From NCBI RefSeq assembly GCF_000515335.1, contig NZ_KI911563.1, positions 3,000,936 through 3,064,935 on the forward strand: a stretch of DNA of 64,000 nt. Direction: 5' to 3'. The translations under genes were made by a program, and so were the position numbers. The stretch is from Cohnella panacarvi Gsoil 349. Lineage in GTDB: Bacteria; Bacillota; Bacilli; Paenibacillales; Paenibacillaceae. Below the pieces are notes generated by a model. It had not been told where the DNA came from and searched no databases. It saw nothing but the letters and a program-made list of their open reading frames with translations. Positions 51,358-60,356 of this stretch are shown here, in pieces; positions within the stretch are counted from its first letter, which is position 1; each line of letters begins with the position of its first letter.

Positions 51358-52299
51358 ATGCCGGAGATGCAGGAATATCGCGAGGAAATAGAGTTCGTAT
51401 TTGCGGAAGCGTCGAATGAAATGAAGGAACTTCCGCCTATATTCCGCGAACGGGCGCAGGCGTTACTGACGACTAGCAACCCGTTATGCAATGGGGGAAG
51501 GGCGAATCGGATCAGTTACTTGCTGCCGTACTGGATGCGGGAGCTGACGAACAGCCCGTCCGCGTTGTGCCGCGATATGGCGGTCGGCAATATTTACGCG
51601 ATGCTTCGTTATTTCCTGCTGGACGATGCGATGGACGGGATCGAGAGGAGCGGGGGAACGCTAAGACGTTCCTTGGCCCTTGGCCAGCTGCTCGAGGAAC
51701 GGTTCAGACGGCGCTACGGCCGTCACTTTCCGCACGGTTCCGAGCTGTGGGGCTGCTACAGCAAATACGTAGAGGAGTGGGCGACAGCGGTTCATTCGGA
51801 AACGGAAAAACCGATCGACCCGAACGACTTCGCGCGGTTGGCCCGGAAAGCGGCACCCGTCAAACTAGGCGCGAGCGGGTTGTTGCTGCATGCCGGAATG
51901 CCGGATCGAATTCCGGATACGGAGCATGCCGTCGACCTGGCTCTTGCCGTGCTCCAGATGTCCGATGATTGGAACGATTGGAAGGAAGACCTGTCCGAAC
52001 CGAATGGCAACGCGTTCCTGTCGATCGTACGCGCGGATCTTCCGCCGGCGGAGGCGCTGGATGAACATAAGGTCGGGACGGCCATCTACCACCGTAATGC
52101 CGTTGACCGTCTTGCGGACATTGCCGAGACCTATGTGGAACAGATCGGGCGGATTCCCAACCAACCTGGCGGGCTGCTCGCATTCGCCGATACCGTCGCC
52201 CGGGGAATCCGGACAGTCGCCCTGCGCGTAGAGAATGACAAACGCAGCTTGGCTGAAGAAGGCGCATTCGCGCACTGGTTGTCGAAAATAACAGAATAA
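51358..52299 (+). CDS. Class 1 isoprenoid-synthase-fold protein (ComQ-like prenyltransferase candidate)
   Basis: A 313-residue all-helical protein with both metal-binding motifs of trans-isoprenyl diphosphate synthases: first Asp-rich motif DDAMD (89-93) in MLRYFLLDDAMDG, and second DDWND with WKED (203-211), followed by NGNAFLSI. In this fold they bind Mg-diphosphate of an allylic substrate. The size and single-domain layout fit ComQ-type enzymes that prenylate a peptide Trp rather than chain-elongating synthases. It lies 71 bp before a RiPP precursor gene ending in N-W-S, which suggests peptide prenylation; a small terpene synthase is the alternative. ATG at 51358 has GGGAG about 10 nt upstream. 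No signal peptide. Confidence 0.78.
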   Translation: MPEMQEYREEIEFVFAEASNEMKELPPIFRERAQALLTTSNPLCNGGRANRISYLLPYWMRELTNSPSALCRDMAVGNIYAMLRYFLLDDAMDGIERSGGTLRRSLALGQLLEERFRRRYGRHFPHGSELWGCYSKYVEEWATAVHSETEKPIDPNDFARLARKAAPVKLGASGLLLHAGMPDRIPDTEHAVDLALAVLQMSDDWNDWKEDLSEPNGNAFLSIVRADLPPAEALDEHKVGTAIYHRNAVDRLADIAETYVEQIGRIPNQPGGLLAFADTVARGIRTVALRVENDKRSLAEEGAFAHWLSKITE

Positions 52300-52329
52300 T
52301 GACACATTTTGTATGCGGGATGGTATGAT
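52300..52329 (+). promoter_or_regulatory. Possible own promoter of the precursor gene
   Basis: TGACAC (52300-52305) is 18 nt from TATGAT (52324-52329), which carries the extended -10 TGG in front. A small hairpin GTAGGC-AATA-GCCTAC (52330-52345) follows in the leader. It would give the peptide mRNA a supply independent of the enzyme gene. Confidence 0.45.
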
Positions 52330-52370
52330 GTAGGCAATAGCCTACTTTCTCTATGAAAGGTTGTCATTCC

Positions 52371-52619
52371 ATGTCCTTGAACTCCTTGAAAGTACAGATC
52401 ATTCAGAAAGCATGGGAAGATCCAACGTTTAAGGCGCAACTGCTAGCCGACCCGCGCAAGGCGTTGCAAGCATCGTTCGGTATCGAGCTTCCGGAGGGGA
52501 TTAACCTGAAGGTAGTGGAAGAGACTCCGTCCGACTACTACTTAGTCATTCCGCCTAATCCGGCAGAGCTCGAAGCTCCGCTAACTGAGCCGGGCAATCT
52601 TCGATATAATTGGAGTTAA
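52371..52619 (+). CDS. NHLP-type RiPP precursor peptide ending in Asn-Trp-Ser
   Basis: An 82-residue peptide. Residues 5-65 are the nitrile-hydratase-alpha-like leader (TIGR03793/NHLP type): IIQKAWEDPTFKAQLLADP, ALQASFGIELPEG and VEETPSDYYLVIPPNP match it throughout. The tail after the leader is APLTEPGNLRYNWS, with Trp81 penultimate and Tyr79 next to it. There is no Cys and only two hydroxyl residues in the tail, which argues against a lanthipeptide or thiazole product. ATG at 52371 has AAAGGT about 9 nt upstream; ATG at 52353 adds six residues and has none. The adjacent isoprenoid-fold enzyme is the only candidate modifying enzyme in the window. Stop overlaps the convergent kinase stop by 4 bp. 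Confidence 0.85.
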   Translation: MSLNSLKVQIIQKAWEDPTFKAQLLADPRKALQASFGIELPEGINLKVVEETPSDYYLVIPPNPAELEAPLTEPGNLRYNWS

Positions 52620-54508
52620 CCTTGATTCGAACAAGGGAACCGAATCGTCGCTTCGGTTCCTTTGCCTATTTCGCTGCGAAATTCAAGCGTTCCTTTCATG
52701 ACTTCTATGATGCGGAATGTGACCATAAGTCCTAAGCCCGTCCCTTTGGTTTTCGTAGAGAAATAGGGATTGCCTAGCTTGGCGAGCTGCTCCTCGTCCA
52801 TCCCGTGTCCGTTATCGGATATCCGTATGAACACCGTTGAATTTTCCTCGTAAGCTTTTACCTCTATTTTCCCGTTATCCTGCAAAGATTCGGCGCTATT
52901 CTTCAGCATATTGATCAGCGCCTGTTTGAACTTGGACGGGCTGCCGACGATCGTCAGAGGATTATCGGGCGCGTCTATATGCAGAACACCGCCGTTCAGC
53001 ATGACCATCGGATGGATGATCATGGCGATCGTGTCCAATTGCTGCTTGACGTCCATCGAGACCATCACTTCCTGCTCGGGTTTGGCGAACGTTAAGTAAT
53101 CCGTAATGATGGCGGCTGCCCGGTCCAGTTCGCTGATGGCCATGCCGAACTGAATCCGGTTCTCCTCGCCCGCTTTGCTCGAGAGCAGCTGCAGGAAGCC
53201 TCTCGTCACTTGCAGCGGGTTGCGGATTTCATGGGCGATGGAAGCGGCCATTTCGCTGAGAATCCGCATTCTCTCCGTTTTCTCGAGCTGACTGTTGAAT
53301 AGTGCCAGCTCTTGGGAGTAGGAGAGCAGCTTCGCGTAGTCGGCGGCTATTATTCGATTCAAATTCATGACAAGACAAGCGATCAGGAACACGAGGCCGA
53401 ACTTCCACAAGATGAACTCGTGCATGCCGTGCCCGACGAAGAGGATGGTCATATCGGCGATGCCGGAGATCGCAAAGGCGATAATACCGATCGATAGCAG
53501 CATGGAGTTACCATATCGCCGATAGGCATTCCGAACGGCCAGGACGATCGTGATGAGCAATTGCGCCATGACTAGCGGCGCAAAAATCCAGAACGTAAAC
53601 AGTTTGTAATAGAAATATAACGACCCGCCGACGGTTTGGTATACGACCATGACGGCGAAACACGGGATATAATAACCGAGTAGCCACTTCTCGGCTTTCG
53701 TCAGCCAAACATAGGGTTCGTCGAAAGAACGGATAATGAAGTAGAACAGGGCCGGACCGAGAATGAGAATGAACGTATCGAACAAGAAGAAGAGTATGGG
53801 GCCGAAATCCGGATAGTAATGGTAAGGCAGCGATGAATTAGTGACGATCAGCATGCCCGTAGACAGGATGAACAAACCGAGCGCGTTCGCCGTCTTCGTT
53901 AATTTCCCGTCGAAAAAACCGGTCGAGACGAGCATAATCAGTCCGAGGAAGGCGATCGCGGCTCCGAGCAGCACGTTCGGAAGCATCTGGCGAACGTTCA
54001 GGGTGCTCAGGGTAGCGAACTCGCCGACTCGAACGGGACTGCCGATCCCGGCTCTCTCCGTAGATTCGATACGAATATATAGATTCGATTCGGTCGGTTT
54101 GGCCGTTAGCGGAACCAACACGATGTTGCGCTCGAAATCATAGCCGCGAGAGGAGCGATAGATGGGCTCGGCATCTTCGAATACGGTGACATCGAGCCCG
54201 TATAGCTTCGTAATCAACAGACCCGGATGGTGATAGGGGGACGTGGGCGGTACGACGATATGCACCCAGGAGCCTGCGGCTCCGCTCGGCAACTCGGTAA
54301 GAGGGCGATCCGCCGTTGTGGAATGCCAAGTTAAATCCGCGGAAGGAGTCATGCCCGACAGCTCCGACTTCTGAATCCAAGCCATGTTCCATTCGGTCAC
54401 GGATTGGATGGTTTCGTCGCCATTGGTTTTCGTAGAGAAGGTTGACATAATGGCAAGTACGATACAGACGATCACCAAGATCATGACGGGTTGCCTAAAA
54501 TTACGCAT
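52616..54508 (-). CDS. Orphan sensor kinase with 7TM sensor and extracytoplasmic domain
   Basis: A 630-residue membrane kinase. An N-terminal membrane segment (8-24) is followed by an extracytoplasmic beta domain (about 30-175, 7TMR-DISM-like) and seven membrane segments (about 178-382). Then come HisKA with AHEIRNPLQVTRGFLQLL (His426), the N box (LINMLKNSAESL), G1 (DNGHGM) and G2 (GTGLGLMVTFRII). The HEIRNPL-GFLQLL signature is shared with sporulation kinases that feed Spo0F, and no response regulator gene is adjacent. The TAA overlaps the precursor peptide's stop tail-to-tail. Whether it senses that peptide is speculation from proximity. Confidence 0.88.
   Translation of the reverse strand: MRNFRQPVMILVIVCIVLAIMSTFSTKTNGDETIQSVTEWNMAWIQKSELSGMTPSADLTWHSTTADRPLTELPSGAAGSWVHIVVPPTSPYHHPGLLITKLYGLDVTVFEDAEPIYRSSRGYDFERNIVLVPLTAKPTESNLYIRIESTERAGIGSPVRVGEFATLSTLNVRQMLPNVLLGAAIAFLGLIMLVSTGFFDGKLTKTANALGLFILSTGMLIVTNSSLPYHYYPDFGPILFFLFDTFILILGPALFYFIIRSFDEPYVWLTKAEKWLLGYYIPCFAVMVVYQTVGGSLYFYYKLFTFWIFAPLVMAQLLITIVLAVRNAYRRYGNSMLLSIGIIAFAISGIADMTILFVGHGMHEFILWKFGLVFLIACLVMNLNRIIAADYAKLLSYSQELALFNSQLEKTERMRILSEMAASIAHEIRNPLQVTRGFLQLLSSKAGEENRIQFGMAISELDRAAAIITDYLTFAKPEQEVMVSMDVKQQLDTIAMIIHPMVMLNGGVLHIDAPDNPLTIVGSPSKFKQALINMLKNSAESLQDNGKIEVKAYEENSTVFIRISDNGHGMDEEQLAKLGNPYFSTKTKGTGLGLMVTFRIIEVMKGTLEFRSEIGKGTEATIRFPCSNQG
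52636..52663 (+). terminator. Terminator of the precursor gene, inside the kinase 3' end
   Basis: GGAACCGAA (52636-52644) and TTCGGTTCC (52652-52660), then TTTG. It lies 17 bp after the precursor stop and within the last codons of the opposing kinase gene. Confidence 0.55.
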
Positions 54509-58230: not shown

Positions 58231-59118
58231 TTACCACGTTAGCAATAGGGCATCCTGTACGACTTCGTTCTCCATTGTGTCACCTTGCTTTTGCAATCGG
58301 TTTACCATCGACATTCCACAATTTACGAAAGTACCTCTTTCGAACAACCCTTCTGGAGCGATTACTCCAATATCTTCTGAGCCTGATCGCCTTGTTCCAT
58401 TAATTGAAAGCATTACTTTTACACCACGTTGTTTACATTCGTAAATCTTTTCCCATAAATCGGAAATCCTAAACTCTTGTGCGCCGTATAAAATAGCTTG
58501 ACTATGTGTGTAGGGTGGGTCGCAATATACTAAATCTCCTTCTCTAGCCCTATCCATTACATTTTTAAAGTCTTCATTTAGAAATGTAACGTCTTCTCTT
58601 AAAATGTTGTGCCAAATTGCAACTCGCTCCTCGAACGCTTCAGGTGGAATAGGCTTATGTGGTCCTATGGGTGTACTCATGTAACCATCTTTTCTACGGA
58701 AGCGAACAATGCCGGAGTAGCATGTTCTGGATAGTACTGCAAAATCTAATGCATTAAAACTATTGTTGAATCGTGCTCTTATTTCTAAATATTTATTTTC
58801 CCTATCTTCATTATAGCCTTCGAGGCTTGTCCTATAGTGATCTATCAGTGTTTTCGGATCGTTTTGTACATACTGAAAAATCTCTATCAAAAACGGCAAA
58901 ACGTCTGATCCGACAGCATTTTCGAATCTCCTAAATAATGAATTGTTATTGTAGTTGCACAAAGTACCTAGAACAGCGCCGCTTCCAAGAAATGGTTCAT
59001 AAAATGTTTTTATATCATGTGGCATATAAGAAACAATTTCTTCTGCAAATCTGTGTTTATTCCCTACCCATTTTAACAATTGTGGGATGTCCGCTTTCGC
59101 ATATGATATGCTGCTCAT
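58231..59118 (-). CDS. DNA adenine methylase, D12 class (type II modification enzyme)
   Basis: A 295-residue N6-adenine methyltransferase of the Dam/DpnM (D12) class. LLKWVGNKH near the start and FLGSGAVLG form the SAM site (motifs X and I), and DLVYCDPPYTHSQAILYG carries the catalytic DPPY. The family includes GATC and GATATC enzymes; specificity is not readable. ATG at 59118 follows TTGAGGTGAACTA on the complement. It is divergent from the C-protein and endonuclease genes, a standard type II restriction-modification layout, in clearly AT-rich DNA. Confidence 0.93.
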   Translation of the reverse strand: MSSISYAKADIPQLLKWVGNKHRFAEEIVSYMPHDIKTFYEPFLGSGAVLGTLCNYNNNSLFRRFENAVGSDVLPFLIEIFQYVQNDPKTLIDHYRTSLEGYNEDRENKYLEIRARFNNSFNALDFAVLSRTCYSGIVRFRRKDGYMSTPIGPHKPIPPEAFEERVAIWHNILREDVTFLNEDFKNVMDRAREGDLVYCDPPYTHSQAILYGAQEFRISDLWEKIYECKQRGVKVMLSINGTRRSGSEDIGVIAPEGLFERGTFVNCGMSMVNRLQKQGDTMENEVVQDALLLTW

Positions 59119-59175
59119 TAGTTCACCTCAAGTGATCTTCCTGCACAAGATTATATCAACACAATAGAGTTTTGT

Positions 59176-59202
59176 CACTCATAGTCTGTAGACTTATAGA
59201 CT
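59176..59202. promoter_or_regulatory. C-box of the restriction-modification system
   Basis: CACTCATAGTC-TG-TAGACTTATAGACT closely matches the C-box pattern (GACT/AGTC half-sites repeated twice). It lies between the divergent methylase and C-protein genes, where the C protein would first activate, then repress its own operon. Confidence 0.75.
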
Positions 59203-59258
59203 GCAGAAGAGTATTTTTCAGGTTGAATACATGAATGAAGATGGGTTGAATCTAATCA

Positions 59259-59492
59259 ATGTGTATAAATGAGAACGAAATAAAAACGGATTTTGGAAAT
59301 GCAATAAGGAAAGTTAGAACACAAAAAGATTACAGTCAAGAGAGATTAGCCGAGATTTCCGGTTTACATCGCACATATATTAGCGAAGTAGAACGCGGGG
59401 ATCGAAACATATCCCTCGTGAATATTATAAAGCTTTGCAAAGCATTAGATATTAGTTTGTCACAATTATCAAAAATCATCGAAGAGGAGTAA
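59259..59492 (+). CDS. Restriction-modification controller (C) protein, XRE type
   Basis: A 77-residue helix-turn-helix protein. FGNAIRKVRTQKDYSQERLA, then SGLHRTYISEVERGDRNIS forms the lambda-repressor-like fold of C proteins. These dimerise, bind the C-box and delay endonuclease synthesis when the system enters a new host. ATG at 59259 has no evident ribosome site, as in several C genes with leaderless transcripts. The endonuclease gene starts 3 bp after its stop. Confidence 0.9.
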   Translation: MCINENEIKTDFGNAIRKVRTQKDYSQERLAEISGLHRTYISEVERGDRNISLVNIIKLCKALDISLSQLSKIIEEE

Positions 59493-59495
59493 CTC

Positions 59496-60356
59496 ATGCG
59501 TCCCAACAGTGAATATTTAGAAAAATCATCTGCATTTTGGGCATATGCTAAATTATTATCTGAACAATTGGGTTACTCTAGGGGCAATAAAGTTTTATCA
59601 TACAGTAAAACTCAAGCAGTCGCAAAATTACACCAAATAGGAATTAACACAGATAATTCAATATTAGAAGATGTTCTCGATTATTTGGAATACCGTGCAG
59701 ACATTTTAAATACCACTGTGCAGCATAACTTGATGGATTTACCTATTGCACGGCAAACATTTTATAAAGTATACGAGTTTTATAAACAAAACAGGTTTAC
59801 TTCAGGATTACCTTTTAATAAACAAAAGAATGAAAAGAAGGATGTTGCTTATTTTACGGGTATTATCAATATAGTTACAGAAAAAACCTTACGGGAGTTT
59901 GCTCGTACGAATAACCTAGATTATGGAACAGATGTTGTTTATGATTTTAATCCGATGAATTTATCTTATTTTTTAAGTGAAAATAAAAGTTTAGAAGGCA
60001 TTATGTCCAGGAGATTTGATGGGGCGTATCCATCAATCGTAAACCCAAGTTTGATCTGGGAAATAAAAGAATACTACTATACAACTACCTTTGGCAGCCG
60101 GATTGCAGATGGTGTATACGAAACTCAATTGGATGGATATGAAGTGAAGACGATTCGGGTAGAGACAGGGCACAAGATGAAGCATATTTACTTTATCGAT
60201 GCATACGATACTTGGTGGAATATGGGGAAGTCCTACCTATGTAGAATTATGGACATGCTTCATACTGGCTTAGTTGATGAAGTTATCGTTGGTAAAGAAG
60301 TTTTTGAACGATGGCCCAAGGTACTTCAAAATACACTCGAAAAGCAATTAAAATGA
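59496..60356 (+). CDS. Type II restriction endonuclease
   Basis: A 286-residue endonuclease identified by context and by the PD-(D/E)xK core: D175 (RRFDGAYPS), then E189-I-K191 (LIWEIKEYYY). The N-terminal ~130 residues are helical and may contact DNA. ATG at 59496 uses GAGGAG inside the end of the C gene, so the two are co-transcribed. It should cut the site protected by the D12 methylase; the site is unknown. Strongly AT-rich codon use marks it as acquired. Confidence 0.85.
   Translation: MRPNSEYLEKSSAFWAYAKLLSEQLGYSRGNKVLSYSKTQAVAKLHQIGINTDNSILEDVLDYLEYRADILNTTVQHNLMDLPIARQTFYKVYEFYKQNRFTSGLPFNKQKNEKKDVAYFTGIINIVTEKTLREFARTNNLDYGTDVVYDFNPMNLSYFLSENKSLEGIMSRRFDGAYPSIVNPSLIWEIKEYYYTTTFGSRIADGVYETQLDGYEVKTIRVETGHKMKHIYFIDAYDTWWNMGKSYLCRIMDMLHTGLVDEVIVGKEVFERWPKVLQNTLEKQLK

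Follow-up and report, generated by a model that had tools for sequence, protein, structure and literature searches.

Two described systems come closest to the locus studied here. In Paenibacillus alvei, a cluster published in December 2023 comprises the histidine kinase PalP, the NHLP precursor PalX and the enzyme PalQ (PMC10853753). According to the available text of that report, PalQ modified PalX in vitro with mass shifts of +68, +136 and +204 Da (C5, C10 and C15), and NMR of the C5-modified PalX core octapeptide showed that C3 of the indole of the C-terminal Trp carries the group and that the ring has closed to a pyrroloindole. The indole NH was proposed to be held by Gln197, ahead of the SARM; a double mutant in the SARM was still active; and addition of Ala after the Trp of PalX abolished activity (PMC10853753). 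The available text of a 2026 review describes the terminus requirement of PalQ as strict, with Gly near an internal Trp permitting low activity, and reports a conserved Gln before the second motif for both PalQ and Ord1 (PMC13290415).

The second system, the quorum-sensing set ComQ/ComX/ComP/ComA of Bacillus, resembles the present locus in having an isoprenoid-synthase-fold enzyme, a Trp precursor with a hypervariable core and a fixed Trp, and a multi-transmembrane kinase encoded alongside (PMC4008528). A genome study of P. polymyxa, in its available text, stated that comQXPA homologues were not found (PMC4209062). Among our loci, those from P. ottowii and P. terrae, both species of Paenibacillus (L136 and L169), carry the Pal cassette.

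The window, a stretch of 64,000 nucleotides of Cohnella panacarvi Gsoil 349 DNA, carries a gene for a predicted palQ-type Trp prenyltransferase (51358..52299, plus strand, 313 aa), a palX-type precursor gene (52371..52619, plus strand, 82 aa) and a palP-type sensor histidine kinase gene (52616..54508, minus strand, 630 aa). It shares with the P. alvei trio a FARM/Gln/SARM enzyme, an adjacent NHLP-led precursor with Trp at its end, and a histidine kinase; that kinase is named once in the available text of PMC10853753. The two loci differ in the position of the Trp: P. alvei PalX ends in it (core DNVRRFFW), whereas in the window precursor it is penultimate (RYNWS) and the very last residue is Ser. 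We nevertheless file the window under the Pal cassette, as a variant, because the enzymes align throughout and the Trp label shifts repeatedly among related enzymes. The best explanation of the whole, which we consider likely, is a Pal-type cassette for lipopeptide signalling that resembles ComQXP but uses an NHLP leader. Gene order, motifs, conservation, the shift of the Trp and the kinase pairing are features of the DNA and protein sequences, and the fold is that of a predicted model.

A sequence-only reading of the stretch had already paired the enzyme with the precursor and proposed a Trp-prenylated peptide made by a combination it took to be undescribed. The first proposal is supported by the mass shifts and NMR data of the P. 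alvei trio (PMC10853753), and by analogy with this published homologue Trp prenylation at the window locus is well supported. The claim of novelty fails, because the combination of such an enzyme with an NHLP precursor is known from PalQ/PalX. Two points had escaped that reading: the convergent sensor kinase, which is the most telling clue to function, and the fact that a penultimate Trp is unusual in comparison with published PalQ.

Both Asp-rich motifs that had been claimed for the 313-aa ORF are present: the FARM reads D89-D-A-M-D93 and the SARM D203-D-W-N-D207-W-K-E-D211, with Q200 ahead of the latter. Seven residues (D89, D93, Q200, D203, D204, D207 and D211) were unchanged in 34 of 34 aligned PalQ homologues and likewise in all 136 labelled rows of the larger set. 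The SARM residues are thus invariant among homologues of the window enzyme although they were non-essential in the published PalQ double mutant. Compared by published residue positions, the motif spacing agrees between PalQ (D89/D93, Q197, D200/D204) and the window enzyme (D89/D93, Q200, D203/D207).

The enzyme gave zero matches to Pfam and NCBIfam models at E up to 1, and a PDB sequence search with the enzyme profile returned nothing significant (best E 0.14). Structure prediction of the enzyme had been proposed as a check by the earlier reading. The AlphaFold2 model built from the 34-row alignment had a pLDDT of 93.8, and Foldseek matched it to trans-prenyl diphosphate synthases in the PDB, with TM up to 0.69 among the best 50 matches listed. 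With a best E of 1.7e-3, and thus no hit at or below 1e-3, the match is remote; it points to the all-alpha isoprenoid-synthase fold of class I prenyl diphosphate and terpene synthases. Judged by the model, PalQ is an isoprenoid-synthase-fold enzyme; the assignment is right, though remote, since it is these synthases that the model matches.

The start of palX is taken as the ATG at 52371, 71 bp after the palQ stop codon; the longest ORF form begins at 52353 and has 88 aa. The leader matches TIGR03793 with 72.4 bits (cut-off 50.9) and Pfam NHase_alpha with E 4e-14, which bears out the earlier description of an 82-aa NHLP-leader peptide ending in RYNWS. The variable core ends in NLRYNWS (...GNLRYNWS), and the presumed acceptor is Trp81 (codon 52611-52613). 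Among the other NHLP precursors in the same genome, two of the three that were read end without Trp. Lanthionine or azole chemistry, which had been called unlikely, was ruled out as a candidate for the window precursor: its tail is free of Cys, and Cys occurs in the last 15 residues of only 9 of the 142 distinct precursors.

The enzyme is present in 251 of 295 genomes of the family of the window, in 91 of 149 genomes drawn from the order (matches in four families) and in 37 of 398 genomes drawn from the class, one of the 37 lying outside the family but inside the order; the window's own genome is counted in each figure. In the best 80 of 220 loci, the relatives that bear a name come from Cohnella, Paenibacillus, Fontibacillus and Thermobacillus, and the closest within these 80 is Cohnella sp. 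REN36 (67% identity). Collapsing 180 loci by identical last 200 enzyme residues left 138 distinct loci. The sequence-only reading had stated that homologues found mostly without the precursor would speak against its proposal; the precursor was found in 134 of the 138, in 126 of these within 500 bp.

The four loci without a linked precursor were considered as counter-examples and rejected for three of the genomes, which have a precursor elsewhere; the fourth locus is L192, where the contig ends. Precursors were sought by profile in 23 genomes, namely 20 of the 44 enzyme-less genomes of the family and the three with an enzyme but no adjacent precursor. The 20 enzyme-less genomes gave no PalX-like match above 60 bits and four weak ones of 60 bits or less. 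In one of them (G010) a 186-aa two-domain NHLP ORF scored 100 bits in total with the precursor profile, with no single match above 60, and ends without Trp. The other three genomes gave strong matches of 107-113 bits, and the unlinked precursors (ending in YTWT, YSWT and YVWS) are each convergent with a PalP-type kinase gene; X therefore stays with P when away from Q. These three loci, L084, L026 and L027, belong to the genus of the window and have their precursor-kinase pairs at L205, L207 and L206; a kinase gene is still found beside the enzyme in L084 and L027.

Excluding the four precursor-less loci and two with a cut or frame-broken precursor left 132 loci for the count of Trp position. 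Of the 134 distinct loci with a precursor, 132 have a Trp among the last three residues of the nearest one; in the other two, the precursor is either truncated where the contig stops (L163) or disrupted by a frame break within a run of C (L035). In L035 (2539-5913) the kinase is also split into two ORFs, and both breaks may be sequencing or assembly errors. When every precursor was counted without selection, the figure was 150 of 152, and in a later sample 18 of 18 loci agreed on the Trp (13 from other families of the order and five from the family of the window). Among 142 distinct precursors, a set chosen for Trp in the last three residues, the entropy of the Trp is zero, and each of the 12 preceding positions has at least 3.0 bits. 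A non-conserved Trp had been named in the sequence-only reading as a second argument against its proposal. The Trp itself is kept, but its distance from the C-terminus varies from 0 to 2 residues: it is final in 79 loci, penultimate in 38 and antepenultimate in 15.

Against this background it is very improbable that the enzyme is a terpene or prenyl diphosphate synthase with free products and the NHLP peptide a regulator or bystander. A class I fold with both Asp-rich motifs would suit such an enzyme, but the near-perfect co-occurrence with a Trp-ended precursor, a Gln conserved ahead of the second motif, a feature that PalQ and Ord1 are also described as having (PMC13290415), and the published activity of the homologue PalQ (PMC10853753) argue against it.

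Several loci contain tandem precursor arrays, with five precursors in L086, four in L118 and four in L280 (one of them cut by the locus edge); members differ around and after the Trp, for example RKYTWV, RKFVWI, RKYNWL and RKYVWF. In eleven other loci (L193-L196 and L198-L204), whose enzymes form one starred clade, precursors end in NCGPWRS or similar, with the Trp antepenultimate and a Cys three residues ahead of it.

The main new point of this analysis is that the penultimate Trp is both inherited and recurrent in the PalQ tree, in contrast with the strict requirement of published PalQ. In a tree of 137 enzymes, made by a quick method with long branches flagged, with the cut enzyme L192 omitted and five of the 137 rows without a label, the starred branches require at least eight changes of the penultimate label. 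For a second tree and for the comparison of enzyme columns, labels were set by hand for four rows: L026, L084 and L027, from their unlinked precursors, and L035, from its broken-frame precursor. In this second tree, a careful one of 57 rows, a branch with support 100/97 separates 21 penultimate-Trp enzymes, that of the window among them, from the rest, and all 21 pair with W-X precursors, three of them via unlinked ones. Grouping a further penultimate row, L081, with this clade was not rejected as a constraint (p-AU 0.08).

No enzyme column was found, across the 136 labelled rows, that tracks the Trp position apart from ancestry. A165 versus S165 was considered as a candidate residue, and it separates the clade of the window, but the penultimate-Trp enzyme L081 outside the clade carries Ser; the A165/S165 difference thus follows ancestry.

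Published PalQ loses activity when Ala follows the Trp (PMC10853753), whereas the window precursor ends in W-S, and therefore prenylation here cannot simply be assumed. By its sequence the window appears as a natural exception to the C-terminal-Trp requirement of published PalQ, placed within a well-supported penultimate-Trp clade. Our literature search found no published statement of an inherited or recurrent penultimate Trp; sequences of this kind may be present in the alignments that supplement PMC10853753.

The W-S end would be trivial if a carboxypeptidase trimmed the residue after the Trp before PalQ acts, the enzyme being an ordinary C-terminal-Trp PalQ. This would agree with the rejection of C-terminal extensions by published PalQ (PMC10853753), with the high variability of the residue after the Trp (3.48 bits over 64), as expected of a discarded part, and with the lack of a W-X signature among the enzyme columns examined. 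We nevertheless consider it rather doubtful. The penultimate Trp is stably inherited across the 21 enzymes of the clade, all with W-X precursors, and a peptidase does not recur near the cassette, though a housekeeping one could act.

The kinase gene palP is convergent with palX, and the stop codons of the two overlap. Its product is predicted to have an N-terminal anchor helix, an extracellular beta domain, a multi-helix membrane region, and HisKA and HATPase_c domains; it carries PF00512 and PF02518, and PF07730 is absent among its matches at E up to 0.01. The predicted structure of the sensor region in the window protein (pLDDT 85.9) shows the anchor helix, the beta domain and the helical membrane part, and the beta domain resembles a domain of GH2 glycosidases over about 150 residues (best E 7e-5). 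Two features liken the PalP kinases to 7TMR-DISM/KinB-type sensor kinases: of 38 sensor regions, 22 contain 7TMR-DISM_7TM (E up to 0.01), and in the PDB the kinase domain is closest to sporulation kinase B (3d36, 193 bits). The window protein differs from this type in that its own sensor region gave zero matches in Pfam. Of 36 matches in the genome of the window, all others leave the first 300 residues uncovered.

The kinase gene is convergent with and adjoins the nearest precursor gene in 119 of 132 distinct loci; the remaining 13 mostly have extra precursors or a longer gap between precursor and kinase. Counted per precursor, and with full-length kinases only, the kinase is convergent in 103 of 150. 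Response regulators are absent nearby: of 86 PF00072 matches in the genome of the window, none lies within 25 kb of palP and the nearest is at about 26 kb, and among relatives a response regulator lies within 1.5 kb of the kinase in 4 of 106 (a profile-search figure that replaces the 3 of 106 from a single-query search). PalP is therefore an orphan kinase, as are the sporulation kinases of Bacillus. The one link between PalP and Spo0F or Spo0A is the resemblance of its kinase domain. A search with PF14689 for a phosphorelay component also matched control genomes such as E. coli.

Distances between cores covary weakly with those between sensor regions (partial r 0.12-0.17, with permutations that leave some phylogeny). 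The core covaries with the kinase catalytic domain too (0.135), and ligand-receptor coevolution is therefore not demonstrated.

In a clustering of ORFs of 90 aa or more from 105 distinct loci of 8.5 kb or more, the recurring families were the kinase (104 loci), the enzyme (102) and the precursor (45, undercounted because it is near the size limit). Beyond these and an antisense shadow (13 loci), no ORF family occurred in more than 10 of the 105 loci, and neither an exporter nor an immunity gene nor a protease or peptidase was a fixed neighbour of the cassette in this set. Since no further ORF family recurs widely, the MFS transporter and TetR genes upstream of palQ in the window are probably not cassette parts.

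We infer signalling from the gene pairing, the hypervariable core around a fixed Trp, the tandem precursors (five in L086) and the X-P pairs found away from Q. The prenylated peptide might instead be an antimicrobial or membrane-active lipopeptide, with PalP only sensing stress or regulating its own cluster. Many NHLP peptides are RiPP natural products, and PalQ-prenylated antimicrobial peptides have been studied (PMC13290415). This alternative is quite unlikely, given that immunity and export genes do not recur, that the cassette enzyme is nearly universal in the family, and that a precursor away from the enzyme still keeps its PalP-type kinase, which looks like a signal with its receptor. 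The lipopeptide signalling cassette remains our preferred reading.

With the kinase characterised, the comparison with ComQXPA can be completed. The Trp near the precursor C-terminus (Trp81 of 82) is common to both, but several other features diverge. ComX has a ComX-type leader, whereas the window precursor has an NHLP leader and no match to ComX-type precursors (PF05952) in Pfam at E up to 1. ComP has a PF07730 kinase domain with ComA adjacent (PMC4008528), in contrast to the PF00512 domain of the window PalP and the lack of a regulator gene adjacent to it, and 7TMR-DISM in the sensor regions of related Pal kinases likewise sets them apart from the PF07730 class of ComP. ComQ is described in the available text of PMC10853753 as being without the second Asp-rich motif, whereas the window PalQ has both, and the four com genes lie on one strand, whereas the window kinase gene is convergent. 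Because its precursor is not ComX, its kinase is of a different class and ComA is not adjacent, the window cassette is not a member of ComQXPA.

Two DNA elements were noted within the cassette. A short stem-loop followed by a T-rich stretch lies between palQ and palX (52330..52345, plus strand) and, as a consensus match, is a possible attenuator, though one such element against a mean of 1.6 in shuffles is not above chance. A 25-nt palindrome, GGAACCGAA-N7-TTCGGTTCC (52636..52660, no strand assigned), lies within the 3' coding end of palP, just beyond the palX stop codon. Perfect stems of 7 or more occur at 40 of 105 kinase 3' ends, compared with 3 of 105 in a control stretch deeper in the gene. 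The palindrome could act as a bidirectional terminator embedded in the gene, or it could arise incidentally from a protein motif that is conserved.

Two further features of this genome were recorded. NHLP precursors of another, unrelated group lie at C1:3616283-3621530 (L032-L034); two of them flank an acyltransferase ORF that looks GNAT-like by eye, and the group could be a fatty-acylated RiPP cluster. At 58231-60356 of the window, what looks by eye like a restriction-modification set comprises an ORF similar to Dam-type DNA methylases, in which a DPPY motif occurs, together with a 286-aa ORF and a small HTH ORF.

For prenylation in the window strain, export, sensing and the downstream target, we infer the following course. 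PalQ would bind the NHLP leader of PalX, with the FARM holding the allyl diphosphate and Gln200 near the acceptor indole, and would put a prenyl group, probably C10 or C15, on the indole of Trp81. As has been reported for both PalQ and ComX, C3 would probably be the site of attachment, and the ring would then close to form a pyrroloindole. The enzyme of the window and those of its clade would have to tolerate one residue beyond the Trp, or else work on a precursor from which it has already been trimmed. A protease would then cut off the leader to give a short lipopeptide ending in ...YNW(prenyl)S, which would exit the cell and be sensed by PalP as a convergent 7TMR-DISM/KinB-type orphan kinase, much as ComP responds to ComX. 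PalP, having no adjacent response regulator, might perhaps feed the sporulation phosphorelay.

A wider proposal goes beyond the locus, and we offer it tentatively, as one that may well fail: the Pal cassette would be an order-wide form of prenyl-lipopeptide quorum sensing, with an NHLP leader and a KinB/7TMR-DISM receptor, an origin independent of that of ComQXPA, and the sporulation phosphorelay as its target. The enzymes of this system would have shifted repeatedly between terminal, penultimate and antepenultimate Trp, with the window enzyme naturally prenylating a Trp that is not C-terminal.

The existence of natural precursors with a penultimate Trp suggests that some enzymes may prenylate a Trp that has a further residue behind it, a reaction that published PalQ performs poorly; enzymes able to do so would serve peptide lipidation. 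If the signalling reading is right, most genomes of the family (to judge by the 251 of 295 sampled) would hold an unrecognised peptide signal with its receptor gene alongside.
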